From Thioalkalivibrio sp. ALJT (lineage in GTDB: Bacteria; Pseudomonadota; Gammaproteobacteria; Ectothiorhodospirales; Ectothiorhodospiraceae): 64,000 nt of DNA. The stretch is from positions 1-64,000 of the forward strand of contig NZ_KB907129.1 in NCBI RefSeq assembly GCF_000381825.1, in the 5' to 3' direction. The notes beneath the pieces were generated by a model, which had not been told where the DNA came from, ran no database searches, and saw only the letters and a program-made list of their open reading frames with translations. Position 1 is the first letter of the stretch, and each line of letters starts with the position of its first letter. The translations under genes were made by a program, and so were the position numbers. Positions 2,138-59,371 of the stretch are shown piece after piece.

Positions 2138-3853
2138 ATGGCGAACTCCACTACGACACCGCGGCTCCCCGGGCTGGCAAAGCGTCTGGTCGAGGCCGAC
2201 CTGATTGCAGAAGACATTGCGTCGCAACTGGTCGAGGAGTCCCTGTCCAAACAGACACCTCTGACCCACTTGCTCGCCACCAAGGGTGGCGTAGCCGAGG
2301 CACGCCTGGCAGAGGCAGCCGCCGAGGAGTTCGGTCTGCCCGTTCTGGACCTGGCCAGCTTCGACCACGAACTGCTGCCGAAGGAACACCTCAACGAGAA
2401 GCTGATCCAGAAGCACCACGCGCTGCCCCTGATCGTACGCGGCAACCGGCTTTATATCGCAGTCTCGGATCCCACGAACCTGGGTGCCACGGACGAATTC
2501 AAGTTCGCCACCGGAATGCCAACGGAGGCGGTACTGGTCGAGCCGCGCAAGCTCGACCGCATGATCGACCGCGCCCTGAGCGCTGCCACCTCGTTACTCG
2601 GCGATCTTGGCGATGAAGGCCTGGACAGTCTGGCGATTGATTCCGGCGAGGAGGACAAGGAAACCACGCAACCGACTGACGGCGTCGACGACGCTCCGGT
2701 CGTGCGCTTCGTCAACAAACTTCTGGTGGATGCAATCAATCGCAAGGCCTCGGACATTCATCTCGAACCGTTCGAGAAGGATTTCCGGGTGCGCTTCCGT
2801 ATCGATGGCGTGCTGCATGAAGTGGCCCACCCGCCGAATTCGCTGGCCCCGCGTATCACCGCCCGGGTAAAGGTCATGTCGCGAATGGACATTGCCGAGC
2901 GCCGGGTACCACAGGACGGCCGGATCAAGCTTAAGCTGTCGCGTACCCGTGCCATCGATTTCCGGGTCAGTACCCTGCCAACGCTGTACGGCGAAAAGAT
3001 CGTGATGCGTATTCTGGACCCGAGCAGCACGTCTCTTGGTATCGACCAACTGGGCTATGAGGAGCACCAGAAGGAGGCCTACCTCAATGCCCTCAAACGG
3101 CCCTACGGCATGATCCTGGTGACCGGGCCGACGGGCTCGGGGAAAACGGTGTCGCTGTACACCGGCCTTGGCATCCTGAACACGGCGGACCGCAACATCT
3201 CCACCGCCGAAGATCCTTCAGAAATCAATATGCCCGGGGTCAACCAGGTCAACGTCAACCCGAAGGTGGGCCTGACCTTCGCCAGCGCCCTGCGCGCCTT
3301 CCTGCGCCAGGATCCGGACGTCATCATGGTCGGGGAAATCCGCGACCTCGAAACGGCCGAGATCGCAATCAAAGCCGCCCAGACCGGGCACCTCGTGCTG
3401 TCAACGCTACACACCAATGACGCACCACAAACCCTGACACGCCTCGCCAACATGGGCGTCCCCCCCTACAACATCGCATCCTCCATCCTGCTGATCATCG
3501 CCCAGCGCCTGGCGCGGCGGTTGTGTCCAAACTGCAAGGAACCGGAGGACCTCCCCGAAGAGGTCCTGCGCAAGGAGGGCTTTACCGATGCCGACATCCA
3601 GGCCGGGGTCTCGGCCTATCGGGCCGTCGGCTGCGACCAGTGTACGAACGGCTACAAGGGCCGACTGGGCATTTACCAGGTCTTGCCAATCAGCGAAGAG
3701 ATGCAGCGCGGCATCCTGGAGGGTTACAACTCTATGCAGCTTGCGGAGCAGGCAAGAAAGGAAGGAATCGAGGACCTGCGCCGCGCCGGTCTGATGAAGG
3801 TAATGAAGGGGCTGACCAGCCTCGAGGAAGTCAATCGCGTGACCAAGGACTAG
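2138..3853 (+). CDS. pilB: Type IV pilus assembly ATPase PilB
   Basis: PilB is the hexameric cytoplasmic ATPase that powers pilus extension. The 571-residue protein has an N-terminal T2SSE_N domain (about 10-150) and the secretion ATPase core. Walker A GPTGSGKT is at 330-337, the Asp box TAEDPSEIN follows, then the His-box region GHLVLSTLHTND (418-429), and the zinc-binding CPNC (463-466) and CDQC (499-502). I chose the ATG at 2138 because the in-frame TTG at 2123 lacks a spaced ribosome site and the protein then aligns with known PilB N-termini. The TAG stop is part of a CTAG that borders the repeat element at 3854. pilC and pilD follow; no pilin gene is nearby. Confidence 0.96.
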   Translation: MANSTTTPRLPGLAKRLVEADLIAEDIASQLVEESLSKQTPLTHLLATKGGVAEARLAEAAAEEFGLPVLDLASFDHELLPKEHLNEKLIQKHHALPLIVRGNRLYIAVSDPTNLGATDEFKFATGMPTEAVLVEPRKLDRMIDRALSAATSLLGDLGDEGLDSLAIDSGEEDKETTQPTDGVDDAPVVRFVNKLLVDAINRKASDIHLEPFEKDFRVRFRIDGVLHEVAHPPNSLAPRITARVKVMSRMDIAERRVPQDGRIKLKLSRTRAIDFRVSTLPTLYGEKIVMRILDPSSTSLGIDQLGYEEHQKEAYLNALKRPYGMILVTGPTGSGKTVSLYTGLGILNTADRNISTAEDPSEINMPGVNQVNVNPKVGLTFASALRAFLRQDPDVIMVGEIRDLETAEIAIKAAQTGHLVLSTLHTNDAPQTLTRLANMGVPPYNIASSILLIIAQRLARRLCPNCKEPEDLPEEVLRKEGFTDADIQAGVSAYRAVGCDQCTNGYKGRLGIYQVLPISEEMQRGILEGYNSMQLAEQARKEGIEDLRRAGLMKVMKGLTSLEEVNRVTKD

Positions 3854-4134
3854 GGAAACACGGATCCATGTACTCACTCGCGCTGGTACCCCGGTTGTCC
3901 CGAGACCAGGCGCATCCTGCAGCGGGCAGAGCTTCTACCCGCACGCGACGCAACGCAGGACCGGGGAACCCGGGGAGCCAGCCCCGAAGGGCTCTGCCTC
4001 CCGTTGTTGATCGAAATCGGGCGGGTGTGTGGCGTTGCAGTTCCTGTGTGCAGAACGACTGCACGCCAGTCACCGCACACGAAACGCACGCAAAGGCAAC
4101 GCAGCAGCGAGCGCGTACAGTAATCAGTGTTTCG
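3854..4134. mobile_element. MITE-like inverted-repeat element, copy 1
   Basis: A 281-bp non-coding element between pilB and pilC. Its ends are imperfect inverted repeats (22 of 29 positions), left end GGAAACACGGATCCATGTAC. The left flank is CTAG (3850-3853, containing the pilB stop codon) and the right flank is CTGG (4135-4138). Inside, GTGCAG-AACGA-CTGCAC (4048-4064) and GCGGG...CCCGC (3922-3942) form hairpins. It matches copies at 40378 and 46694 but in reverse orientation. It ends 32 bases before the pilC start, so it lies within the pil transcript. No transposase is encoded. Confidence 0.85.
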
Positions 4135-4166
4135 CTGGAGGTCACCAGCTACAGGGGGACAGGGGG

Positions 4167-5378
4167 ATGGCCGATTCCGGGACCGTTTACACATGGGAAG
4201 GGCTGAACAAGCATGGCAACCGGGTAAAGGGCGAAATACCCGCCGACAACGAGGCCAACGCACGTGCCGAATTACGGCGTAACGGCATCAATGTCACCAG
4301 GATCCGCAAAAAGCCGAAATCGCTGTTCTCCGGCAGCGGCAAGAAGATCGTGCCGGCGGATATCGCCTACTTCCTGCGTCAGATGACCACCATGCTGCAA
4401 TCCGGCGTGCCGCTGGTACAGGCCTTCGAGATCGTCGGACGCGGCAATGAAAAACCCGCGATGCGCGATCTCGTGCTCAAGCTGAAAGCGGACGTAGAAG
4501 GCGGCGAGACCTTCGCCAAGGCGTTGAGCAACCAGCCAAAATACTTCGATGACCTGGTAATTAACCTGGTCGAGGCTGGCGAACAGGCGGGGACACTGGA
4601 GACCCTGCTGGACAAGGTCGCGACCTACAAGGAGAAGACCGAGGCCCTGAAGGCCAAGATCAAGAAGGCCCTGTTCTATCCGGCAGCGGTCATCGTCGTC
4701 GCGATCGTGGTGACGGCCATCCTGCTGATCTACGTAGTCCCGCAGTTCGAGGCCCTTTTCCGGGGCTTTGGGGCCGACCTCCCGGTCTTCACCCGCATGG
4801 TGGTCGAGCTTTCGGAATTCACTCAGCGCTGGTGGTGGGCCATCCTCGGGGCCATGGTGGCGCTCGGGTTCATCTTCGTGCAGGTCAAGCGCCGGTCACC
4901 ACGCTTCGCGCGATTCCTCGACATTGTCAGCCTGAAGATCCCGGCCTTCGGCCCCATCCTGCGCAAGGCTGCGATTGCACGCTTCGCACGCACCCTCTCC
5001 ACCATGTTCTCGGCCGGGGTCCCGCTGGTGGATGCCCTGACCTCGGTCTCCGGCGCTACCGGCAACGCCGTCTACCGCGAGGCCACGCTGCGCATGCGTG
5101 ACGAGACCGAGGCCGGGGGGCAGCTGCAGTGGTCCATGCGCAACACGGCCGTCTTTCCCAATATGGTGGTGCAGATGGTGGCCATCGGTGAAGAGTCCGG
5201 TTCCCTGGACGCCATGCTCTCGAAGGTCGCCGACTTCTACGAGGAAGAGGTAGACAACGCCGTGGACAGCCTGTCCAGCCTGCTGGAACCGTTGATCATG
5301 GTGGTCCTGGGCGTGCTGGTGGGCGGCCTGGTCATTGCCATGTATCTGCCGATCTTCCAGATGGGCCAGGTGATTTAG
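4167..5378 (+). CDS. pilC: Type IV pilus inner-membrane platform protein PilC
   Basis: PilC is the polytopic inner-membrane protein that couples PilB to pilin assembly. The 403-residue product has two T2SSF repeats: the first (about 70-195) leads into the membrane segment AAVIVVAIVVTAILLIYVV, the second (about 270-395) ends with the hydrophobic LIMVVLGVLVGGLVIAMYL. The chosen ATG at 4167 follows a strong GGGGGACAGGGGG ribosome site; the frame is open further upstream only because it runs into the repeat element. It lies between pilB and pilD. Confidence 0.95.
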   Translation: MADSGTVYTWEGLNKHGNRVKGEIPADNEANARAELRRNGINVTRIRKKPKSLFSGSGKKIVPADIAYFLRQMTTMLQSGVPLVQAFEIVGRGNEKPAMRDLVLKLKADVEGGETFAKALSNQPKYFDDLVINLVEAGEQAGTLETLLDKVATYKEKTEALKAKIKKALFYPAAVIVVAIVVTAILLIYVVPQFEALFRGFGADLPVFTRMVVELSEFTQRWWWAILGAMVALGFIFVQVKRRSPRFARFLDIVSLKIPAFGPILRKAAIARFARTLSTMFSAGVPLVDALTSVSGATGNAVYREATLRMRDETEAGGQLQWSMRNTAVFPNMVVQMVAIGEESGSLDAMLSKVADFYEEEVDNAVDSLSSLLEPLIMVVLGVLVGGLVIAMYLPIFQMGQVI

Positions 5379-5705
5379 GGGCCAGCGGAGCGATGAACAC
5401 ATTCGAGTCATCCCCCCGGGGGCCCCAGGGCAGGGCCCACCACGCAGCGGGTCGCGCATCTGCGCGCGCGTTCGAGATGGATTCATGGCACCACGCCGGA
5501 GCGGATAGCCGGCCCCACGGGCGACTCCAAGCCGGGACTCGGCCACCTGTCTGCAATGACACCGGCGACATCCAAACCGGGCGCACCCGAGGTATTGACG
5601 CCCCGTCTTTTTTGGGAGGAATCACCGCAGGGCACCCATCGCCCCCTGAACGCACGCCGAACGGATCCGACCCCGAACGTGCACATGGGTGGGTGGGTTC
5701 CTAGG
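5379..5705 (+). other. pilC-pilD spacer
   Basis: A 327-base gap. An open frame runs from an ATG at 5393 to a TAG at 5702-5704, but its product is rich in Arg, His, Gly and Pro with no domain or similarity I recognise, so I do not call it a gene. GC-rich inverted repeats near 5411-5440 (CCCCCCGGGGG and GGGCCC...GGGCCC) could form a hairpin that dampens read-through into pilD. Confidence 0.4.
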
Positions 5706-6575
5706 ATGCTTGCCGAGACGGCCGTCGTGCTGGAGGGCTGGGCCATACCGATCGCGGGGTTGCTGGGCCTGCTGATCGGCAGCTTCCTCAATGTCGTCAT
5801 CGCACGCCTGCCGGTGATGCTCGAACGCGGCTGGGAGCAGGAGGCGCGCGCGATCCTCGAACACCCGCCAACGGAGGCGGAGGACCGCGAACCCTTCGAT
5901 CTGCTGCGCCCCCGCTCGCGCTGCCCGCAATGCCAGCGCCCCATCCGAGCGCTGGAGAACATCCCTCTGCTGAGCATCCTGTTCCTGCGCGGGCGTTGTC
6001 CCGGCTGCGGCACCCGCATCAGCTGGCAATATCCTGCGGTGGAGGCGCTGACCGCTCTGCTGTTCATCGTCACAATCTGGCAACTGGGACCCAGTGCCGC
6101 AGGGCTGCTGGCGCTGGTCCTGACCGCAGTGCTGATCGCGGCCGCCGGCATCGATGCCCGCACCACCCTGCTACCCGATCAGCTCACCCTGCCGCTTCTA
6201 TGGCTGGGGCTACTGGTCAACATACCAGGCACCTTTACCGACCTGCAGTCCGCTGTCATCGGGGCCGCAGCCGGCTACCTGATCCTGTGGCTGGTCTTCC
6301 ATGGCTTCCGACTGCTGACCGGCAAGGAAGGCATGGGCTTCGGCGACTTCAAGCTCCTGGCCGCACTCGGCGCCTGGCTGGGCTGGCAGGCCCTGCCGGT
6401 CATCCTGTTGCTGGCCTCTCTGGTCGGAGCGGTGGTCGGGATCGCCCTGATCCTGCTGCGCGGGCGCGATCGCAATATCCCCATCCCGTTCGGCCCCTAC
6501 CTCGCCGCCGCCGGCTGGCTGACGCTGCTCTGGGGCGATCAGTTGGCGGTCCTCTATTTCCCGCAAGGTCTGTAG
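5706..6575 (+). CDS. pilD: Prepilin leader peptidase / N-methyltransferase PilD
   Basis: PilD is the bifunctional inner-membrane aspartyl protease that removes type III signal peptides from prepilins and methylates the new N-terminus. The 289-residue length is typical. Two zinc-type CxxC pairs (CPQC and CPGC) lie in the cytoplasmic loop of the N-terminal domain. The catalytic aspartates are in GIDARTTLLPDQL and GFGDFK, within a multi-span membrane protein. I placed the start at ATG 5706, where MLAETAVVLEG leads straight into the first membrane segment; the open upstream frame encodes a charged stretch not found in the family. coaE follows after 10 bases, as in Pseudomonas pilBCD loci. Confidence 0.95.
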   Translation: MLAETAVVLEGWAIPIAGLLGLLIGSFLNVVIARLPVMLERGWEQEARAILEHPPTEAEDREPFDLLRPRSRCPQCQRPIRALENIPLLSILFLRGRCPGCGTRISWQYPAVEALTALLFIVTIWQLGPSAAGLLALVLTAVLIAAAGIDARTTLLPDQLTLPLLWLGLLVNIPGTFTDLQSAVIGAAAGYLILWLVFHGFRLLTGKEGMGFGDFKLLAALGAWLGWQALPVILLLASLVGAVVGIALILLRGRDRNIPIPFGPYLAAAGWLTLLWGDQLAVLYFPQGL

Positions 6576-6585
6576 GGAGGCGGCC

Positions 6586-7200
6586 ATGCTGCGGGTCGGA
6601 CTCACCGGAGGGATCGGTTGCGGCAAGAGCCGGGTCGGCACTTTGTTTTCGAGCCTGGGGGTTCCGGTACTCGATGCCGACACGATCACCCGCGAACTGC
6701 AGGCCCCCGGGCACACACTCCACGCCGCCATCGTGCATCACTTCGGGCCCGGCGTTCTGGATGCTCGGGGGCACCTCGACCGCGGTGCCCTGCGCAGCAA
6801 AGTCTTTACCGACCCCGGCGAGCGCCAGGTCCTCGAAGGCCTCGTGCATCCGGCCGTCCGGGCCACAATCGAGGAACGCCTGGCGCAACTCCCGAACGAC
6901 ACCCCATATGCACTGGTCGTGGTGCCTCTGCTGTTCGAGGCCGGCTGGGAGACGCATTTCGACCATGTGATCGTGGTCGATTGCGACCCCTCCGAGCAGG
7001 TCGCGCGGGTACGCCAGCGTGACGGCCACAGCCAGGCCGATGTAGAGGCCATCATCGAGGCCCAGATGAACCGCGAAGAACGGCGCCGGCGTGCGGACCG
7101 CACCATCCACAACACGGGTACGATCACGGATACCGAGCTGGCGCAACAGGTCGCCGATTGCGACGCCGCCCTGCGCCGGCTGCACAACCAGGCCTTCTGA
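6586..7200 (+). CDS. coaE: Dephospho-CoA kinase
   Basis: CoaE phosphorylates the 3'-hydroxyl of dephospho-CoA, the last step of coenzyme A synthesis. The 204-residue protein begins with MLRVGLTGGIGCGKS, carrying the Walker A motif at residues 7-15, and then has the family motifs DADTITRELQAPG and VVPLLFEAGW. The position directly after pilD is conserved in gammaproteobacteria. The ATG follows GGAGGCGGCC. Confidence 0.96.
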   Translation: MLRVGLTGGIGCGKSRVGTLFSSLGVPVLDADTITRELQAPGHTLHAAIVHHFGPGVLDARGHLDRGALRSKVFTDPGERQVLEGLVHPAVRATIEERLAQLPNDTPYALVVVPLLFEAGWETHFDHVIVVDCDPSEQVARVRQRDGHSQADVEAIIEAQMNREERRRRADRTIHNTGTITDTELAQQVADCDAALRRLHNQAF

Positions 7201-47435: not shown

Positions 47436-48878
47436 TCAGTGGTTGTGGCCGCCGTGGCCGTTGTGTCCTCCATGCCCCCCGTGGCCACCATGGCCGCCGT
47501 GGCCTCCATGCCCGCCATGGGCATCGCGGCTGGGGGTCGGGAGCCGGTCGGAATCCGCATCCGCGACCTTGCCGCGGCGCACCGGATTGCCGAAATCCGG
47601 ATCGCTGCTCACACGGCGGGCCACCTCCCCGTCCGGGTGCCAGTACCAGCCCGGGTCACGGAAGTCCCCGGGCTCGAGGTCGTCGCGGACCTTGATCAGG
47701 GTGAACATGCCGCCCATGCCAATGTTGCCGAACGGCCCGTGGCCCATGCCCATCGCCAGGGTGTTTTCCGGGCCCGGCATGTGGCCACCGTCGGTGTGGT
47801 CCTGGTGATCCGCCATGCCGTGCTCGCCCATGGCCATGTAGCCCGGCAGGATGCTGCGGATCTCTTCCTCGATACCGGACTGATCGACCCCCAGCGGGTT
47901 GGCGATGCCGTGCCCCATCGGGTTCATGGTGTGGTGGGTCATGTGGCAGTGGAACGCCCAGTCGCCCGGCGGTGCCGTGAACTCGATATCGCGGGTCTGG
48001 CCGACCGCGACGATCTCGGTTGTCTCCTTGCGCCACTGCTCGCGCGGCCAGCGCCCGCCATCGGAGCCGGTCACCTCGAACGACACCCCGTGCACATGCA
48101 TCGGGTGGTTCCACATCGAAAGGTTGCCCATGCGGATGCGGACCCGCTCGCCGGTCTTCGCCACCAGCGAGTCGATGGCCGGGAACACCTTGGAGTTCAT
48201 CGACCACAGATCGAAGTCCACCATGATCGACGGATCGGGCGTGCGGGTACCGGGATGCAGGCCCCAGTTGTGCAGCAGGATCGCGTAGTCACGATCCACC
48301 GGTTCGATCTCGCCGTCCTTCGGGTGGATGATGAACATCCCCATCATCCCCATCGCCATCTGCACCATCTCGTCGGCATGCGGGTGGTACATGTGCGTGC
48401 CGTGCTGGTTCAGCTCGAACTCGTAGACGAAGGTCTCGCCCGGGTGGATCGGCGGCTGGGTCACGCCCTTTACGCCGTCCATGCCCGAGGGCAGATGGAT
48501 GCCGTGCCAGTGCACCGAGGTGTATTCCGGCAGGCGGTTGGTCACATAGATGCGGACCTTGTCGCCCTCCACCGCCTCGATGGTCGGCCCCGGCGTGGTG
48601 CCGTTGTAGCCCCAGCACTTGGCCATCGAGCCGGGCGCGAACTCGTGCTCGATCTCCTCGGCGACCAGGTGGAACTCCTTCACGCCGTTGTTCATCTCGT
48701 ACGGCAGGGTCCAGCCGTTCGGCGTATGCACCGGCATGTAGCCCTGTTCGGTGCGCTCGCCGGGCGTGGTTTCGCCCTGGTTGTGGTGCTCGTGACCCGT
48801 TTCGGCCATCACCCGGGTCAGGGTGGTTGCCGGCAGCATTGCCGCGCCGGCGGCCAGCAGGAAATTACGCCGTTTCAT
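47436..48878 (-). CDS. CopA-like multicopper oxidase with a Gly-His tail
   Basis: A periplasmic multicopper oxidase of 480 residues with a Tat-like start (MKRRNFLLAAGAAML). All four copper-ligand motifs are present: HWHGIH, YHPHAD, HPMHVHG and HCHMTHHTMNPM. The C-terminus is a Gly-Gly-His repeat (about six units, then GHNGHGGHNH) likely to bind copper. It probably oxidises Cu(I) in the periplasm. Its ATG overlaps the upstream TolC-like stop as TGATG, implying translational coupling. Confidence 0.92.
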   Translation of the reverse strand: MKRRNFLLAAGAAMLPATTLTRVMAETGHEHHNQGETTPGERTEQGYMPVHTPNGWTLPYEMNNGVKEFHLVAEEIEHEFAPGSMAKCWGYNGTTPGPTIEAVEGDKVRIYVTNRLPEYTSVHWHGIHLPSGMDGVKGVTQPPIHPGETFVYEFELNQHGTHMYHPHADEMVQMAMGMMGMFIIHPKDGEIEPVDRDYAILLHNWGLHPGTRTPDPSIMVDFDLWSMNSKVFPAIDSLVAKTGERVRIRMGNLSMWNHPMHVHGVSFEVTGSDGGRWPREQWRKETTEIVAVGQTRDIEFTAPPGDWAFHCHMTHHTMNPMGHGIANPLGVDQSGIEEEIRSILPGYMAMGEHGMADHQDHTDGGHMPGPENTLAMGMGHGPFGNIGMGGMFTLIKVRDDLEPGDFRDPGWYWHPDGEVARRVSSDPDFGNPVRRGKVADADSDRLPTPSRDAHGGHGGHGGHGGHGGHGGHNGHGGHNH

Positions 48879-50455
48879 CAGTGATGCCCTCCGTGACCGT
48901 CGTCGCCGTGGTCACCGTGATCGCCATGGTCATGATCCTCGTGATCTCCGTGATCCCCGTGATCTCCGTGATCCCCGTGATCCCCGTGATCCCCGTGGTC
49001 ACCGTGATCCCCGTGGTCACCGTGGTCACCGTGGTCACCGTGGTCACCGTGGTCACCGTGGCCATGATGGTCGTGATCCATCGCCGACGGGTCATGCTCC
49101 AGCGCATCGGTGTCGAGATAGCCCTCGTCACCCGGCGCCCCGCCCGGCAGCTCGCCGGCCACCGTAAAGGCCAGATCCACCCGGGCCCGCCAGTAGTCAC
49201 CCAGCGCGGCCACCGCGCGCTGCCAGTCGGCCAGTTCTTCCTGCTTGGTCACCAGCAGGTCGAAGACATCGTCGAACATGAAGTTCACGCGCTCCTGCAT
49301 GCGCTCCTGCTCGATCTCGCGGGCCGGCAGCAGTTCGTAGCGCTTGGTGCCGAACTTGTCGCGGTGATGGGCCAGGCGCACGTAGTGCTGGTGCACATCG
49401 GCGGTGACCGCCTGCTCCAGCCGGGCCCGGCGGGCCTCGCCGTCCGAAAGCCGCGCCTCGGCGCGGGCGATGCCGGCCTGGTTCTGGCTGAAGATCGGCA
49501 GGGTGAAGGAGATGCCACCGCCCCACAGGCGGGTGCCGTCGCTCTCGCGCTCGAACTCGATACCGGGCTCGATGTCACCCAGCCAGCGATAGCGCCGCAC
49601 CAGGGCCACGCCCTCGGTGAGCCCCTCCAGGGCGTGATCCAGGGCGCGCAGATCCAGACGCTGTTCCAGGGCCTGCTCGACCAGGGAGTCGCGATCCTCC
49701 ACGCCGGCCAGCGGCAGCGGCAGCTTGCCGGGGACCTCCCAGCCATCCACCTGGCCGGGCAGCCCCATCAGGTGGGCCAGGCGCAGACGGGTCTCGCGCT
49801 CGCGCTGCCGCGCATCCTCGAGCTTCAGCCGGGCCTCGGCCGCACGGATGCGCAACTGGGCCCGCTTCAGGTCGGGGATGTTGCCGGCGTCATAGAAGCG
49901 CTCGCCCAGCAGCGCACCGAGATCCGCGGCACGGGTCTCCAGCGCCTGCACATGGGCCCGCTGGCGTGCAGCCACCGCGTCATACCAGGCACGCTCGGTG
50001 TCCGAGGCCAGGGCCACCATCCCCTCGGCCAGTTGCAGACGAGTGGATTCCCAGTGGGATTCGGCAATCTCCTGACGCGCACTACGCATCAGCAGACCGG
50101 AAATGCCCCAGGCCAGGCCAACCCCCGTCTCGTTGCCGCCACCACCCTCGGGACGCATCACCGACAGCGACAGAGAGGGGTTGGAGAACTGGGCCGCCTC
50201 GACCACGTCGGCAGCCGTCAGATCCAGCTTGGCGTAGGCCTGCTGCATGCGCGGGTTGCGCCACAGGGCCTGGTGAATGGCCGCCTCGAGCGTCAGCTCG
50301 CCGGAGGGTCGGGGCATCTCCGACCCGGGCAGGTCGATCCCCTGTACCGAGATGTCCTCCGCCAGCTCGGAGCGGTCCAGCTCGGGCGCGGTGACCGCGC
50401 AACCGGCGAGGAACAGCACCGATACGACGGGGAGCAGCAATCGGGTTGCTCGCAT
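48878..50455 (-). CDS. TolC-like outer-membrane lipoprotein with a His-rich C-terminal tail
   Basis: A 525-residue outer-membrane efflux-type protein. It has a lipoprotein signal ending LFLAGC, followed by the two-fold TolC repeat (from LTLEAAIHQALWRNP and again from ALEGLTEGVALVRRY) with long heptad helices. The last 75 or so residues are Asp, Gly and His only, with about a dozen GDH units. Such tails are typical of copper- or nickel-binding proteins. No RND pump or adaptor gene is adjacent; the partner appears to be the coupled multicopper oxidase. ATG 50455 follows GGAG. Confidence 0.88.
   Translation of the reverse strand: MRATRLLLPVVSVLFLAGCAVTAPELDRSELAEDISVQGIDLPGSEMPRPSGELTLEAAIHQALWRNPRMQQAYAKLDLTAADVVEAAQFSNPSLSLSVMRPEGGGGNETGVGLAWGISGLLMRSARQEIAESHWESTRLQLAEGMVALASDTERAWYDAVAARQRAHVQALETRAADLGALLGERFYDAGNIPDLKRAQLRIRAAEARLKLEDARQRERETRLRLAHLMGLPGQVDGWEVPGKLPLPLAGVEDRDSLVEQALEQRLDLRALDHALEGLTEGVALVRRYRWLGDIEPGIEFERESDGTRLWGGGISFTLPIFSQNQAGIARAEARLSDGEARRARLEQAVTADVHQHYVRLAHHRDKFGTKRYELLPAREIEQERMQERVNFMFDDVFDLLVTKQEELADWQRAVAALGDYWRARVDLAFTVAGELPGGAPGDEGYLDTDALEHDPSAMDHDHHGHGDHGDHGDHGDHGDHGDHGDHGDHGDHGDHGDHGDHGDHEDHDHGDHGDHGDDGHGGHH
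48941..49060. repeat. Nine-base tandem repeat coding for the GDH tail
   Basis: About 13 copies of a 9-bp unit inside the TolC-like gene, in two sub-blocks: GTGATCCCC-type units (left) and GTGGTCACC-type units (right). The blocks encode the same Gly-Asp-His tripeptide with different codons, so the array grew by separate local expansions. Length changes by slippage would add or remove whole GDH units without a frameshift. Confidence 0.9.
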
Positions 50456-50586
50456 CGTGAAAATCTCCTTGATCGGACTTCGATTCCGCATCCCGCGCGA
50501 ACGCGCGACACGGCCTTGCCGTCCGCCCGTGCCGGGTGGAACCCGGACGCGCGGACAGCCCCGGCGCTCGGGCCGGTACAGTCAGA

Positions 50587-51108
50587 TCAGGAGAGGATCG
50601 GGGGTCGGTATATCGCGGCCGCAGGCGGACCGCTCTGGAACGAATACAGGCGCATGGCCTGCCTCACCAGGGCCGGAAAACCGGTTCCGGACGAAACTGG
50701 CATGCCCTGGCAATGGCCGCAGGCGGAACAGCTGGCCAGACAGGAAGCATCCACGCAGTCGGCGTGCCCAAGCGGGTCGCCGAGATGAGAAGTGTCGGAA
50801 CTTACGGGGCCATGGTGGTCGTGGTGCGAATCAGCGGCGTGCCCGGCGTGCTGACCATGCCTATGGTGGTCGTGCCGGGCGGCGCCCTGGTCATGGTCCC
50901 GTCCATGGTGGTACCGGTCAGCACCATGGGCATGGGTCTGAGCATGACGCACGTGCGAATCGTCGGCGGACGGAGTTCCGTGCATCGCCGCGTGACCGGC
51001 GTGACCGCCTTCCATGCCCACTGCCGCAGCCACCGCCGGCAGACCGGCAATCGCCGCCACCAGCATCCAGCACAGCAGTTGTCGGAAGACCCGTTTCACA
51101 TCAGACAT
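50587..51108 (-). CDS. CopL-like His-rich secreted protein
   Basis: A 173-residue exported protein: signal peptide (LLCWMLVAAIAGLPAVAAA), a central region with more than 25 histidines (GGHAGHAAMHG, HHGRDHDQGAARHDHHRHG), a cysteine cluster CVDASCLASCSACGHCQG and the C-terminal pattern PPAAAIYRPPILS. This layout resembles CopL and related small copper-responsive proteins that precede copA genes. It is the first gene of the copper cluster. Family assignment is by pattern and context; only metal binding and export are directly supported. ATG 51108 is the chosen start. Confidence 0.7.
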   Translation of the reverse strand: MSDVKRVFRQLLCWMLVAAIAGLPAVAAAVGMEGGHAGHAAMHGTPSADDSHVRHAQTHAHGADRYHHGRDHDQGAARHDHHRHGQHAGHAADSHHDHHGPVSSDTSHLGDPLGHADCVDASCLASCSACGHCQGMPVSSGTGFPALVRQAMRLYSFQSGPPAAAIYRPPILS

Positions 51109-51263
51109 CCCGCAAGCGGGCACCCCGGCCCGACATGAACACGCAAAATACCACATCCCGTCACAACCACCGCAGGGGCCTGCTCGCAGGCGAAGCCTCT
51201 GCCCGCGTCCGACTGTGACGGGACATTTGCCTGCAAGCAGACTCCTGCAAATCAACCCTCCTG

Positions 51264-55055: not shown

Positions 55056-55167
55056 CCCGATCGGTAATAAATCCGCCGAATAAGGCTTGCACGGCACACT
55101 TTTTACCGAACGGGATCATATTTGTTGTGACGGAGCCAGAATCGTGCGATTCTTCCCGATCGGTACT
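55056..55167 (+). promoter_or_regulatory. Three operator repeats before hipB
   Basis: CCCGATCGGTAAT (55056-55068), its near-reverse complement TTACCGAACGGGA (55103-55115) and CCCGATCGGTACT (55155-55167) lie in the hipB leader, the last ending six bases before the hipB ATG. Centres are about 47-52 bp apart, close to five helical turns. HipB dimers in E. coli bind several palindromes in their own promoter and bend the DNA, so these are the likely autoregulatory sites. The core CCGATCGG is palindromic. Confidence 0.7.
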
Positions 55168-55173
55168 ATCGGC

Positions 55174-55428
55174 ATGAACCGCATGACACCCGACCTCACG
55201 CCATTGCAGATTCGCAGCCCGGCGGATCTGGGTCACCAGATCCGGACCGCTCGCAAGGCACAGGGCCTGACACAGGCCCAGCTGGCCGAAACGGCCGGCG
55301 TCGGCACACGCTTCGTCTCGGAACTGGAACGGGGCAAGGAAACCGCGCGGCTGGGGCTGTCCCTGGAGATCGCGCGTCTCGTCGGCATCGACATCCTGGC
55401 CCGGCCGCGAGGCGCCGCAAGACCGTGA
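55174..55428 (+). CDS. hipB: HipB-like antitoxin, XRE-type DNA-binding protein
   Basis: An 84-residue helix-turn-helix protein: LGHQIRTARKAQGLTQAQLAETAGVGTR... carries the XRE fold, with SELERGKETARLGLSLEIARLVGID downstream, the usual HipB pattern. It should bind the operators upstream and neutralise HipA. Start ATG 55174; ATG 55183 is in frame. Its TGA overlaps the hipA GTG, so the two are translationally coupled. Confidence 0.9.
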   Translation: MNRMTPDLTPLQIRSPADLGHQIRTARKAQGLTQAQLAETAGVGTRFVSELERGKETARLGLSLEIARLVGIDILARPRGAARP

Positions 55429-56681
55429 CCAGCGCACTGTGCGTCTGGTACGGGCAGCAGCCTGTCGGCCGCCTGCTCCTCACCCCAGGCCGGCAAATGG
55501 CCTTTTGCTACGATAGCGACTGGCTCACCGATGGCTGGCCGATCTCCTGCAGCCTGCCGCTGACCGAAACCGGGGACTTCGTCCCGCCGGACATGCGCGG
55601 TCACCACTTCTTTGCCAATCTGTTGCCGGAGGGTGGCGCCCGGGACCGCCTGGTGCGCTGGCTGGGCATCGCCGACGATGATTTTCTGCTTCTGGAACGG
55701 CTCGGGGCCGATTGCGCCGGCGCCCTGCAGATCCTCCCGGAAGGCGAGCCGCCAGACGCCACCAGCGAAATCTGCCATGCGCTGGAGAACGAGCATCTGC
55801 TACGTACCATCGGCAGCGGGCAGAGCCACTGGACGGGACATGACGAGCCCCCGCGCCTCTCGCTCGCCGGCGCCCAGGACAAGCTGGCCGTCCGGGCCGG
55901 GCGGCAAGAGAACCGTTGGCAATTCTTTCTGCCGGCGCCGGGCACGGCCTCCACCCACATCCTCAAGCTTCCGGTACCGGATCTGCGGCATATCCCGCTG
56001 TTCGAGGCCTTCACCACCTTTCTCGCTCGAGAGCTCGACCTGCCCGCCGCCCCCGTCGAACCGGTACTCCTGAACCAGGAGACTCTATCCCTGAGCGAAC
56101 GCTTCGATCGCCGGACGGAGGGCAAGCGCGTCGTGCGCCTTCATCAAGAAGATCTTTGCCAGGCACAAGGGCTTTCCCGTGCGGACAAGTACAGCCGATC
56201 CCCTGCCACCTTCTCCACCATCACCGACATCCTTCGCGAGCACTCGACCCGGCCCGCGCGCGACATTCAGACCCTGGCCGCATGGCAAATCTTCAACGCC
56301 CTTGCGGGCAACACCGATGGTCACCTGAAGAACCTCTCCCTGCTTGCCACATCCGGCGGCGGATGGGCATTGGCCCCCTGGTACGATCTGGTAAGCACGC
56401 TCGCCATACCCCGCATCAGCCATCGCATGGCACTGCCAATCGGCGCCGCCGAGGACCCGCAGAACCTGCATCGCAATCACTGGGAGGCCTTCGCCCACCA
56501 ACTCGGCGTATCCCCTCGCCTGGTCCAGCGCCTGATCCGCTCCCAGGCCGAGCGCCTGCAGGAAAACGCCGATGCCTGGCACGACGCCTTTCAGGACCGT
56601 CACGGCGAATTTCCCGCGCTGCAGCGAGTCCGGACCGTCATCCGGCGCCAGACCCGAAAGGCCCTGCGCGACTGGCTATAG
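55425..56681 (+). CDS. hipA: HipA-like serine/threonine kinase toxin
   Basis: HipA toxins phosphorylate a target such as glutamyl-tRNA synthetase and induce growth arrest and persistence. The 418-residue protein has the autophosphorylation loop LSLAGAQDKLAV with Ser147, the ATP-site Lys181 in HILKLP, the catalytic NTDGHLKN (Asp298, Asn303) and the metal Asp321 in APWYDL, so it appears catalytically intact. GTG start, overlapping hipB by four bases. Converges on the large PEP-synthase-like gene. The target cannot be deduced from sequence. Confidence 0.92.
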   Translation: MTSALCVWYGQQPVGRLLLTPGRQMAFCYDSDWLTDGWPISCSLPLTETGDFVPPDMRGHHFFANLLPEGGARDRLVRWLGIADDDFLLLERLGADCAGALQILPEGEPPDATSEICHALENEHLLRTIGSGQSHWTGHDEPPRLSLAGAQDKLAVRAGRQENRWQFFLPAPGTASTHILKLPVPDLRHIPLFEAFTTFLARELDLPAAPVEPVLLNQETLSLSERFDRRTEGKRVVRLHQEDLCQAQGLSRADKYSRSPATFSTITDILREHSTRPARDIQTLAAWQIFNALAGNTDGHLKNLSLLATSGGGWALAPWYDLVSTLAIPRISHRMALPIGAAEDPQNLHRNHWEAFAHQLGVSPRLVQRLIRSQAERLQENADAWHDAFQDRHGEFPALQRVRTVIRRQTRKALRDWL

Positions 56682-56746: not shown

Positions 56747-59371
56747 TCAGCCGTTGCCGGGCTGACAGGCGAGCAGGCGCTGCTGCACCACGTCGGCGAT
56801 GACCCGCAGGGGGGCGTCGCGGGTGTCGTGGAGCTGCACGGTTGCGAGGACGGCGGGGTCGATGGACTCGCCGAGGTCGACCTCGAGCGTGTGCGCGGGG
56901 CACTGGTCGAGCCAGGCCGGGTAGTACTCGCAGCGGGGCTCGGTGGGGAACAGCGCGGCATAGGCGATCCGGGCCTCGACCAGGTCCTGGAAGAAGTGGC
57001 TGCCGAACGAGAGGTCCGGGACCATGCCGGCCTCGAGGTCAGCCACCTCCACCAGCATGCGGATGCGGTCGATATCGGCAAAGCGTACCGGGACGCCGAG
57101 TTCCGGGGTGCTGGTGCCCCAGCGGCCGGGGCCGATCAGGAGGGTCGTGGCATCTTCGAGTGCGCGGAGCTGGCGGTTGAGTGCGCCCACCAGGCGGGCC
57201 ACGGCGTACTTCTGCGCGCGGGACAGCGCCGCGTAGCGGGCGGCGTCCACGCGGATCACGCGCTCGATGGCCAGGTCCATGTTGCCGCCCATGAAGCAGC
57301 CGTCGCTGGCGAAGAACAGGCGCTGCGGGTCGACCCGGTGCGGCAGTTCGACCGGCTGGTCGCTGCCGAGGGTGGCGAGCGGGCGGCACTGCACCAGGTT
57401 CACGCCGGCGTTGCCGTCGGCGTCCAGGTGCACGGTGAACTCGACGTCCACCGGGTGGGCGTAGGCGGCCTCCAGGGTCTTGAGCAGCTCGCGCATCAGC
57501 GGGGCGAAATCGGTGCGCTGCAGCAGCGGGATGAAGGTCACCCGCCACAGGCGCTCCTCGCGCCCCTGCTCGCGGGCGCGGCGGGCGGCCTCGCGGTCGA
57601 TCTCGCCGAGCAGGTGGAGCGGCAGGGCCGGCGCGGCCTCGGCCAGTTGCTGGACGGGGACGGCGGCCTCGCGGTTGGCCTCGATGTCGAGTACGTCGGC
57701 GGCGTGCTGGGAGTAGCGGTAGGCCTCGTCCCGACTGTGGAACGGTCGCCGTTCGGGCTGATCCAGCGCCACCACGCAGGCGTGGTCGCGCGCGACCCGG
57801 TCCACCGCGCGAGTGCCCAGCCCCAGCACCAGGCGCAGCATCCCGGCGGACGGATCCAGCGCGCCGTCCCACACGAAGGTATTCCAGGAGACCCCGACGC
57901 CGGCGGCGTCCGGCAGGTAGCGGGAGCCGTGGTAGCGCCCGTTGACCCGCTGCAGCAGCAGCGCCATGGGCTCTTCCCGGTCCATCAGCCCGCGCTGCTG
58001 GCGGTAACTCAGCGCATCATCACTCATGGTCGAGGCATAGACCCGGCGGATGGCGTCCTCCAGCCGCGCCAGGCGCTCGCCGGGGCTGCCCTGGTTCACG
58101 CAGAACACGCTCTCGTACTTGCCGGCAAAGGCGTTGCCGAAGCCGTCTTCCAGCAGGCTGCTGGAACGCACCAGGATCGGGTACTGCCCGTAGTGGTCGA
58201 GCACCCGCTCCAGTTCGCGGCGCACCTCCGGCGGGATCTCGCCGTGCAGCATGTCTTGGCGCAGGCTGCGCGCCTCGTCGAAGTAGCCTTCCGGGGTGCG
58301 CTGGCGCATCAGCCGCGGCCACCAGCCATTGTGTACCAGATAGGCGTAGTACACATCCGCGCCGATGAAGTGCGAGTCGTGCGGTTCCAGCGCCCGCCCC
58401 CAGCGCTGCGGGTCCTGCGCGAGCAGGATGCGCCGCGCCAGCAGCATACCCGCGGCCTTGCCGCCGATGTAGCCGCTGCCGACCATGCGTTCGCGGATCG
58501 CCAGCAGCTCCTCCAGCCCGAGGTGGCGCCGCGCCAGTTCCAGCATGCGCTCGTCGCGGCCGATCAGCACCCGCAGGATGTCGTCCTGCACCCGGGCGCG
58601 GTCGGCCGCCGGCGTGCCCTCCGCCAGCGCGTCGGAGGCCGCGAGGAACAGGCGGTCCCAGTAGTCCAGCAACTGCCGCCCGTGCGGCTGGCCGGGGCGC
58701 TGTTCCTCCAGCAGCGCCTGCAGCCGCGTGGCCTCGCTGCTGTCCACCACCGGTTCGAACTGCATGCCGCACTGGCGGTGCGGCAGGAACATGGTCGGCG
58801 AGCTGCGCTGCCACACCTTCACCGGCTGCACGTGCACCGCGTCGCCGGCGCGGCGCACGTCGATCAGTACCTGCGTGGTCTCGCGGATGCGCGCCAGCGT
58901 GGTATGCGAATGGCTGTGCGGATGCAGTGCGAACCAAGCCACCGTATCCATCTCGTACAGATACGGACAGATGGCGCGGAAGAAGTTGCCCACCATGTGG
59001 TCGGTGGCCCAGGCCTCCAGCAGATCCGACAGGCAGTCGCACAGATAAAAGGCGCCGCGGCCATGCTCGGTGATCAGGCGGAACACGTGGCGGGTGAACG
59101 GCTCGAAGCCGCGCAGGGCGTCGATGGCCACCACCTTGACCCCCGGCCCCGGCTCCACCAGCGGCACATGGCGGCCGAAGCGCAGGTAGATAATGGTACG
59201 CCCTCGGGCACGAGCTGCCGCCACGAATGGCTCGACGAAGCGGCGGTAGTCCTCGATCGCGTCGACCCGCCAGACCACGTTATCGCCGACCCGCAGTCCG
59301 TCAAGCACATGGTCCAGGCCTTCCAGCCCGGTGGAGACGGCTGCCTGCTGCGCCTGCGGATCATGGGTCAT
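56747..59371 (-). CDS. PEP-synthase/PPDK N-terminal domain protein with a degenerate RecA/KaiC-like domain
   Basis: An 874-residue protein. Residues 1-200 resemble a RecA/KaiC-type core (STGLEGLDHVLDGLRVGDNVVW, Walker B-like FYLCDCLSDLLEAW), but the P-loop GxxxxGKT is absent. From about 290 it has the ATP-grasp PPDK_N domain: YIGGKAAGM (301-309), VRSSSLLEDGFGNAFAGKYES (from 401) and LVQCRPLA near 690; a further segment carries GPGRWGTSTPELGVP. The phosphohistidine swivel and PEP-binding domains of real PEP synthase are missing. It may phosphorylate or bind a partner; the reaction is unknown. It is divergent from a GcvR-like gene. Confidence 0.82.
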   Translation of the reverse strand: MTHDPQAQQAAVSTGLEGLDHVLDGLRVGDNVVWRVDAIEDYRRFVEPFVAAARARGRTIIYLRFGRHVPLVEPGPGVKVVAIDALRGFEPFTRHVFRLITEHGRGAFYLCDCLSDLLEAWATDHMVGNFFRAICPYLYEMDTVAWFALHPHSHSHTTLARIRETTQVLIDVRRAGDAVHVQPVKVWQRSSPTMFLPHRQCGMQFEPVVDSSEATRLQALLEEQRPGQPHGRQLLDYWDRLFLAASDALAEGTPAADRARVQDDILRVLIGRDERMLELARRHLGLEELLAIRERMVGSGYIGGKAAGMLLARRILLAQDPQRWGRALEPHDSHFIGADVYYAYLVHNGWWPRLMRQRTPEGYFDEARSLRQDMLHGEIPPEVRRELERVLDHYGQYPILVRSSSLLEDGFGNAFAGKYESVFCVNQGSPGERLARLEDAIRRVYASTMSDDALSYRQQRGLMDREEPMALLLQRVNGRYHGSRYLPDAAGVGVSWNTFVWDGALDPSAGMLRLVLGLGTRAVDRVARDHACVVALDQPERRPFHSRDEAYRYSQHAADVLDIEANREAAVPVQQLAEAAPALPLHLLGEIDREAARRAREQGREERLWRVTFIPLLQRTDFAPLMRELLKTLEAAYAHPVDVEFTVHLDADGNAGVNLVQCRPLATLGSDQPVELPHRVDPQRLFFASDGCFMGGNMDLAIERVIRVDAARYAALSRAQKYAVARLVGALNRQLRALEDATTLLIGPGRWGTSTPELGVPVRFADIDRIRMLVEVADLEAGMVPDLSFGSHFFQDLVEARIAYAALFPTEPRCEYYPAWLDQCPAHTLEVDLGESIDPAVLATVQLHDTRDAPLRVIADVVQQRLLACQPGNG

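Follow-up and report, generated by a model that had tools for sequence, protein, structure and literature searches.

An 874-aa protein of Thioalkalivibrio sp. ALJT joins an N-terminal KaiC-like module without a P-loop to a PPDK_N-type ATP-grasp domain and a C-terminal domain that likely carries a histidine for phosphotransfer. Its gene family is linked to glutamate dehydrogenase (GDH), and that link is well supported. We propose, with a probability of roughly 45%, that the protein is a dikinase-like phosphotransferase, coupled to a sensor, which works with GDH and would act on it. Its parts are of known kinds, as REC-PPDK response regulators and inactivated KaiC-like domains are in print; a search of the openly licensed literature found no description of the domain combination, of the C-terminal signature or of the link between the core and GDH.

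Domain organization of the 874-aa protein

The gene occupies positions 56747..59371 of the reverse strand, stop codon included, in the window, i.e. the whole 64,000-nucleotide stretch of DNA that was analysed, and was recognised as an open reading frame with homologues. It is conserved: 79 homologues, 46-91% identical over 700 residues or more, were aligned, the partial homologue L056 being left out, and the nearest named ones are those of T. sp. ALJ24 and T. halophilus (91%). Structure prediction used 67 rows of this alignment of 79 homologues plus the window protein, and the AlphaFold model of the whole protein reached a mean pLDDT of 87 and a pTM of 0.89. The only Pfam domain is PPDK_N (PF01326; residues 300-674, E 4.8e-45), and an NCBIfam scan of the protein found no equivalog of the PPDK type near its own cut-off. 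The gene converges with a HipB-like and HipA-like pair of the toxin-antitoxin type (window 55129-56681, forward strand) and is flanked on its other side by a divergent gene with two ACT domains. A scan for promoters and terminators found none; four loose GG-N10-GC matches lie upstream. Also in the window are two open reading frames rich in His, Asp and Gly (48878-50491 and 50587-51255, both reverse strand), the first ending in a long HGDHGDH repeat tail that perhaps binds metal. Homologue rows marked as holding one TGA inside had prompted the idea of selenocysteine; it was dropped when tblastn with one homologue against the fetched loci gave matches free of internal stops, and the TGA codons are therefore taken as terminal stops.

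Residues 6-224 (58700..59356, reverse strand) of the predicted model correspond to the second domain of KaiC (best row: Z 20.2, 195 residues, 2.7 A). This part contains STGLEGLD. None of the 80 rows has the Walker A motif GxxxxGK[ST] within its first 120 residues, L023 being truncated ahead of the region. In the region of the KaiC P-loop stands G29-D30-N31-V32-V33 (59273..59287, reverse strand), invariant in 67 rows. The original prediction had described a RecA-like N-terminus that keeps STGLEGLD and has lost GxxxxGKT, and both statements hold; no canonical P-loop had been missed. Model and sequence together fit a KaiC-like module of the inactive type. Inactivated KaiC-like domains (iKaiC) of archaeal signalling proteins are described in PMC5847659, and the present module resembles them as a KaiC fold without a P-loop in a multidomain protein; it differs from that published archaeal form in being bacterial and fused to an ATP-grasp core.

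The PPDK_N-type ATP-grasp domain, residues 265-666 (57374..58579, reverse strand), was assigned from PF01326 and from its match to 5hv6_A, the ATP-binding domain of rifampin phosphotransferase (Z 22.8, 287 aligned residues, 3.2 A). The whole-protein model matches PEP synthase 2ols over residues 266-872 (Z 24.6, 368 aligned), a match that extends past the ATP-grasp domain. In an alignment of ten family members with seven other PPDK_N proteins, K305, R402, S403, S404, E408, D409, D642, E644, Q661 and R663 are the same in all 17 rows. They include the lysine of GGK (K305; 58457..58459), the first three residues of R402-S403-S404-S405 in VRSSS (58157..58168), the D and E of D642-V643-E644, the DxE of the ATP site (57440..57448), and the Q and R of Q661-C662-R663-P664 (57380..57391), all on the reverse strand. 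S405 is replaced by Ala in the seven other PPDK_N proteins, and C662 is particular to the window protein's family among the rows compared. As judged from this alignment, the ATP-site residues compared are intact, which confirms the earlier claim of an ATP-grasp half with unbroken VRSSS and GGK motifs. By alignment, we take K305 and R402 to correspond to Lys22 and Arg117 of rifampin phosphotransferase. According to PMC4844700, loss of either Lys22 or Arg117 destroys rifampin resistance, His825 is the phosphate carrier, and Glu297 can be replaced without loss, which counts against a catalytic need for the Glu.

The C-terminal domain, residues 668-874 (56750..57370, reverse strand), has a predicted swivel-like fold. 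Folded alone it gave a confident model (pLDDT 91.6, pTM 0.90). The rows returned by the structural aligner were headed by a DRTGG domain (Z 6.4) and included the extra domain of pyruvate kinase (3t05 of S. aureus, Z 6.0; 2e28, Z 5.2), a metal-dependent hydrolase (5.5) and the swivel domains of PPDK (5lu4 and 5jvj, Z 5.4; 2r82, Z 5.3), with chaperonin apical domains, an LD-carboxypeptidase, RraA and a transferrin-receptor mimic among further low-Z rows; by the aligner's own note, models without a clear match usually top out at Z 7 to 8, and a Z of 5-6 lies below that. Many of these matches are members of a single SCOP fold, that of the 'swivelling' beta/beta/alpha domain. A Foldseek search with the model of the C-terminal domain returned nothing at E 0.001, the C-terminal profile had no match at E 1 among PDB sequences, and hhalign against swivel domains of the PEP-synthase type gave local P values of 0.093 and 0.26, the global matches being meaningless. 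The PEP/pyruvate barrel, which had been reported as missing, is indeed absent: the window protein has no Pfam match to it at E 0.1, and the roughly 200 residues after the ATP-grasp domain are modelled as a single domain of another fold.

This domain carries two signatures. The first is G747-P-G-R-W-G-T753 (57113..57133, reverse strand); G749, R750, G752, G759 and E775 are present in 101 of 101 rows spanning three architecture classes. The second, S-x-G-[ST]-H-F-F, contains H792 (56996..56998, reverse strand), our candidate phosphocarrier histidine. Of 128 rows, among which no fewer than four genes appear twice, 126 have it, and the remaining two, L197 and L211, end before it; this is the fair count, as the 101 rows were picked by the motif S.G[STC]HFF and its letters are invariant there by construction. 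In the model a strand (770-776) is followed by the loop with S-x-G-S-H792, a helix (792-799) and another strand (803-807). PEP synthase has its motif GGRTSH at the equivalent place, again followed by a helix, and the order of elements agrees with that of PPDK. Since the model is confident and its swivel matches are of low Z, with Foldseek and profile searches not significant, a His domain in the C-terminal third is likely on the model, and H792 stands as a candidate only. That the domain works as a phosphocarrier is, on the same predicted structure, somewhat probable. The original prediction had held that the protein has no phosphohistidine domain, which now appears doubtful given a predicted swivel-like fold (Z 5-6) with H792 invariant. 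The comparison with KaiC and PEP synthase that it had proposed bore out the KaiC fold and gave the 2ols match over 266-872, the swivel likeness of the C-terminus resting at low Z.

The protein shares some features with known enzymes and departs from them in others. Like PEP synthase and PPDK it has an ATP-grasp domain with the same ATP-site residues, and its predicted C-terminal domain, with a histidine at the start of a helix, resembles the PPDK swivel domains at low Z (5.3-5.4); unlike them it lacks the PEP/pyruvate barrel, has a C-terminal domain unrecognisable by sequence, and possesses a KaiC-like N-terminus and a linkage to GDH. Rifampin phosphotransferases are its first-ranked structural matches and likewise have their phosphocarrier domain at the C-terminal end, as stated in PMC4844700. 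The window protein, in contrast, scores 35.9 bits against a cut-off of 999 (NCBIfam) and has no stretch for a rifampin-binding domain between the ATP-grasp and C-terminal domains.

Genomic linkage to glutamate dehydrogenase

The commonest neighbour family is NADP-specific glutamate dehydrogenase (gdhA), three neighbouring copies of which scored 768-784 bits against an NCBIfam cut-off of 536. At 56 of the 79 loci a gdhA gene is no more than 5 kb away (55 from the main count plus L042, added later; several copies, at L027, L038, L059 and L076, are partial at contig ends), convergent downstream in 37 and upstream on the same strand in 19. Marinobacter daqiaonensis and Malonomonas rubra (L029, L057) are among the species with gdhA immediately upstream. 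The remaining 23 loci, 24 before L042 was added, show no gdhA, some of them at contig ends. The two arrangements switch at least four times on the protein tree (FastTree), so the link has outlived rearrangement. The gene-neighbourhood survey that had been proposed for this gene thus pointed to GDH as the likely partner, which had gone unseen in the original prediction. With overlapping gdhA frames excluded, the next neighbour families occur in 11 and 10 loci: the former is gltB, which encodes the large glutamate synthase subunit (1798 bits; cut-off 1047), and the latter resembles the small subunit at scores below the cut-offs. By a stricter count gltB is near in 9 of 79 loci; in eight of these it is separated from gdhA by the 874-aa-type gene. 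Two clusters of neighbours, from 46 and 24 loci, proved to be other frames of gdhA and were not used. At two further loci a 136-aa C-terminal remnant is all that remains beside gdhA (L159, 4733-5143, reverse strand; L160, 2063-2473, forward strand).

In the genome that holds the window, gdhA is on contig C1 and the 874-aa gene on C9, so the two are not linked. GDH was found in 38 of 41 gene-bearing genomes searched, 26 of which had been picked because no adjacent gdhA was seen; the three misses are L038 and L076, both with a partial gdhA beside the gene, and L012. In a sample of the window's class the gene is rare: counting the window's genome, 5 of 276 have it (4 of the 275 others), too few for a co-occurrence test. 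Within the genus, 14 of 24 other genomes have full or partial copies, and GDH was found in 14 of the 15 gene-bearing genomes versus 4 of the 10 that lack the gene.

In Desulfuromonadia the gene or a relative is found in 83 of 226 genomes; the 83 were chosen from 100 listed genomes by dropping 17 with only weak PEP-synthase-like matches, and include the decayed remnants G416 and G417 and the second-class relatives G514 and G549. GDH is present in 80 of these 83 and in 92 of the 143 others, and the three GDH-negative gene-bearing genomes have a partial gdhA beside the gene. The co-occurrence p-values, 4.5e-9 and 0.007, are uncorrected for relatedness, as there was no species tree. The distance to gdhA was tested at 66 places rather than in all 83 genomes: it is at most 500 bp at 39, at most 6 kb at nine more and greater on the same contig at three, and at 15 gdhA is not on the same contig.

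For more distant relatives, a GDH was counted where tblastn showed similarity to one or two reference GDHs. In a clade that has diverged deeply (41-45% identity to L057), 9 of 11 fetched loci have gdhA, and this gdhA is of another subfamily, only 58-60% identical. Among Planctomycetota proteins of the window's type, gdhA is in the fetched stretch of only one of nine loci. Two homologues from genomes titled Opitutales and Opitutia (L008 and L033) are placed by the tree within the gammaproteobacterial clade, owing either to transfer or to an error in binning.

Architectures sharing the core

A profile search of 294 genomes from the phylum of L079, which is a Phycisphaerae record and hence places it in Planctomycetota, gave matches in 46 and three kinds of architecture. 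The first is the full KaiC-like type of the window protein. In the second, the N-termini had no Pfam match in eight proteins scanned (two of them from Desulfuromonadia), and two of the eight have a nucleotidyltransferase at the C-terminus, NTP_transf_2 lying behind the core in L203 (86-3292, reverse strand) and L226 (1166-4678, forward strand). Third-class proteins are about 1000 aa long and share the C-terminal motifs; two that were scanned have weak receiver matches below cut-off.

A GDH-like gene is near 16 of 20 second-class loci and 10 of 17 third-class loci (18 rows, the G610 row not being counted apart), again by tblastn. The one GDH checked against NCBIfam in the diverged-clade, Planctomycetota and other-architecture counts, beside L156, is best matched by the archaeal-type GdhA model at 484 bits, below its cut-off of 750. 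Near other PPDK_N genes no GDH was found in 20 control windows, which come from a different phylum than most of the 37 test loci, include two shorter than 12 kb and represent three genomes without GDH. Because GDH accompanies the second and third classes and is absent from these controls, the link goes with the core and not with the KaiC-like module.

The L158 locus (2159-6666) holds a tandem pair in which the copy without a KaiC-like domain keeps VRSSS and GPGRWGT and its partner with a KaiC-like domain has the altered motifs VRLSS and APGRIGT. At L161 (1510-5931, reverse strand) a similar pair is fused into 1473 aa, the altered motif taking the form APGR(I/L)GT across the two loci. This division of motifs between copies suggests, at the level of sequence, that a separate protein can provide the KaiC-like part, and that VRSSS and GPGRWGT may serve one activity.

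Fusions of a signalling module to a PPDK core have precedent in the REC-PPDK response regulators and in fusions of PPDK with a receiver lacking the aspartate, as given in PMC5847659 and PMC4395418. The likeness is that a signalling module stands ahead of the PPDK_N core, as it may in the two scanned proteins of about 1000 aa; the window protein differs in that its module is KaiC-like, and its Pfam scan gave no Response_reg match. Variable N-terminal modules, together with these published fusions, would argue for regulation.

Proposed mechanism and alternative explanations

As we infer it, the ATP-grasp domain would bind ATP and hand the beta-phosphate to H792, carried by a C-terminal domain that can move; AMP and phosphate would leave, in the manner of PEP synthase and rifampin phosphotransferase. 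Since the protein itself lacks an acceptor domain, H792 would then pass the phosphoryl group to an external target. This would most likely be GDH, whose activity phosphorylation would switch, and the P-loop-less KaiC-like domain may serve for docking or sensing. Each step has its own ground: the ATP site and likely His domain point to the first half-reaction of a dikinase, the missing acceptor domain to a partner protein, the exchanged N-termini to regulation and the genomic company to GDH as the partner. The original prediction, that the protein is no metabolic enzyme but a regulator that transfers phosphate or binds nucleotides, is thus partly supported, by the inactive KaiC-like module, the intact ATP site, the swapped N-termini and the GDH linkage; its stated ground, a missing His domain, is the doubtful part. 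Against our explanation stand the unlinked gdhA of the window's genome, the one in nine among Planctomycetota, the loci of the 79 that show no gdhA, and the swivel likeness at Z 5-6 with no significant Foldseek or profile match. GDH without the core protein is common, as in the 92 Desulfuromonadia genomes.

The same intact ATP site and predicted swivel-like domain would also suit a metabolic enzyme of the GDH pathway that phosphorylates a small molecule (2-oxoglutarate, glutamate or a derivative), just as pyruvate is phosphorylated by PEP synthase, with the N-terminal modules regulating the enzyme. The linked GDHs, being of several subfamilies, share a reaction more than a surface, which favours such an enzyme. 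We consider it unlikely, however, as the protein has no known substrate domain, no PEP barrel by Pfam and no PPDK-type equivalog near cut-off, and the GDH link stays while the N-terminal modules vary. Slightly less likely is that the C-terminal domain is no phosphocarrier and the protein serves GDH as an ATP-driven assembly, ligase or remodelling factor, H792 having a binding or structural role. The lack of a significant sequence or Foldseek link to phosphohistidine domains and the chaperonin apical domains among the low-Z rows fit this; the swivel domains of PPDK and pyruvate kinase among the top rows, a histidine where the order of elements would place it and the motif in every row that reaches the region speak against it. 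That the link reflects co-regulation only, the gene belonging to a nitrogen regulon and the protein acting elsewhere, e.g. on glutamate synthase, is improbable: gltB is nearby in some loci, the window's copy is not beside gdhA and convergent pairs share no promoter, but gdhA is far the commoner neighbour (56 versus 9 of 79) and the link holds across three architecture classes and several GDH types.

Under the phosphotransferase explanation the protein would have a role comparable to that of mycobacterial GarA, which is linked to GDH. To our knowledge few dedicated protein regulators of bacterial GDH exist, GarA in actinobacteria being one. GarA regulates glutamate metabolism by nutrient state, according to PMC5448819. 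From gene linkage and co-occurrence, the window protein would be a putative regulator of glutamate metabolism in the same sense, though it is unrelated to GarA, which exerts its effect through binding and is in turn the substrate of a kinase.

More tentatively, the window protein may belong to a widespread and undescribed superfamily of sensor-coupled histidyl-phosphotransfer enzymes dedicated to GDH. Its core would consist of the PPDK-type ATP-grasp domain and a swivel-type His domain of a new kind, marked by GPGRWG and SxG[ST]HFF, its swappable modules would be inactive KaiC, receiver-like or other domains, and it would switch several GDH types by phosphorylation. GDH fixes ammonium into glutamate and is a meeting point of carbon and nitrogen metabolism, and the adjacency of its gene suggests an unrecognised control of nitrogen use. 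If the superfamily exists as described, it would determine how ammonium assimilation is shared between GDH and glutamate synthase. It would also give a role to PPDK_N proteins claimed by no NCBIfam model and would show the P-loop-less KaiC fold as a working module in bacteria. As a conserved partner of several GDH subfamilies in Gammaproteobacteria, Desulfuromonadia and Planctomycetota, the core protein would be a general control point.
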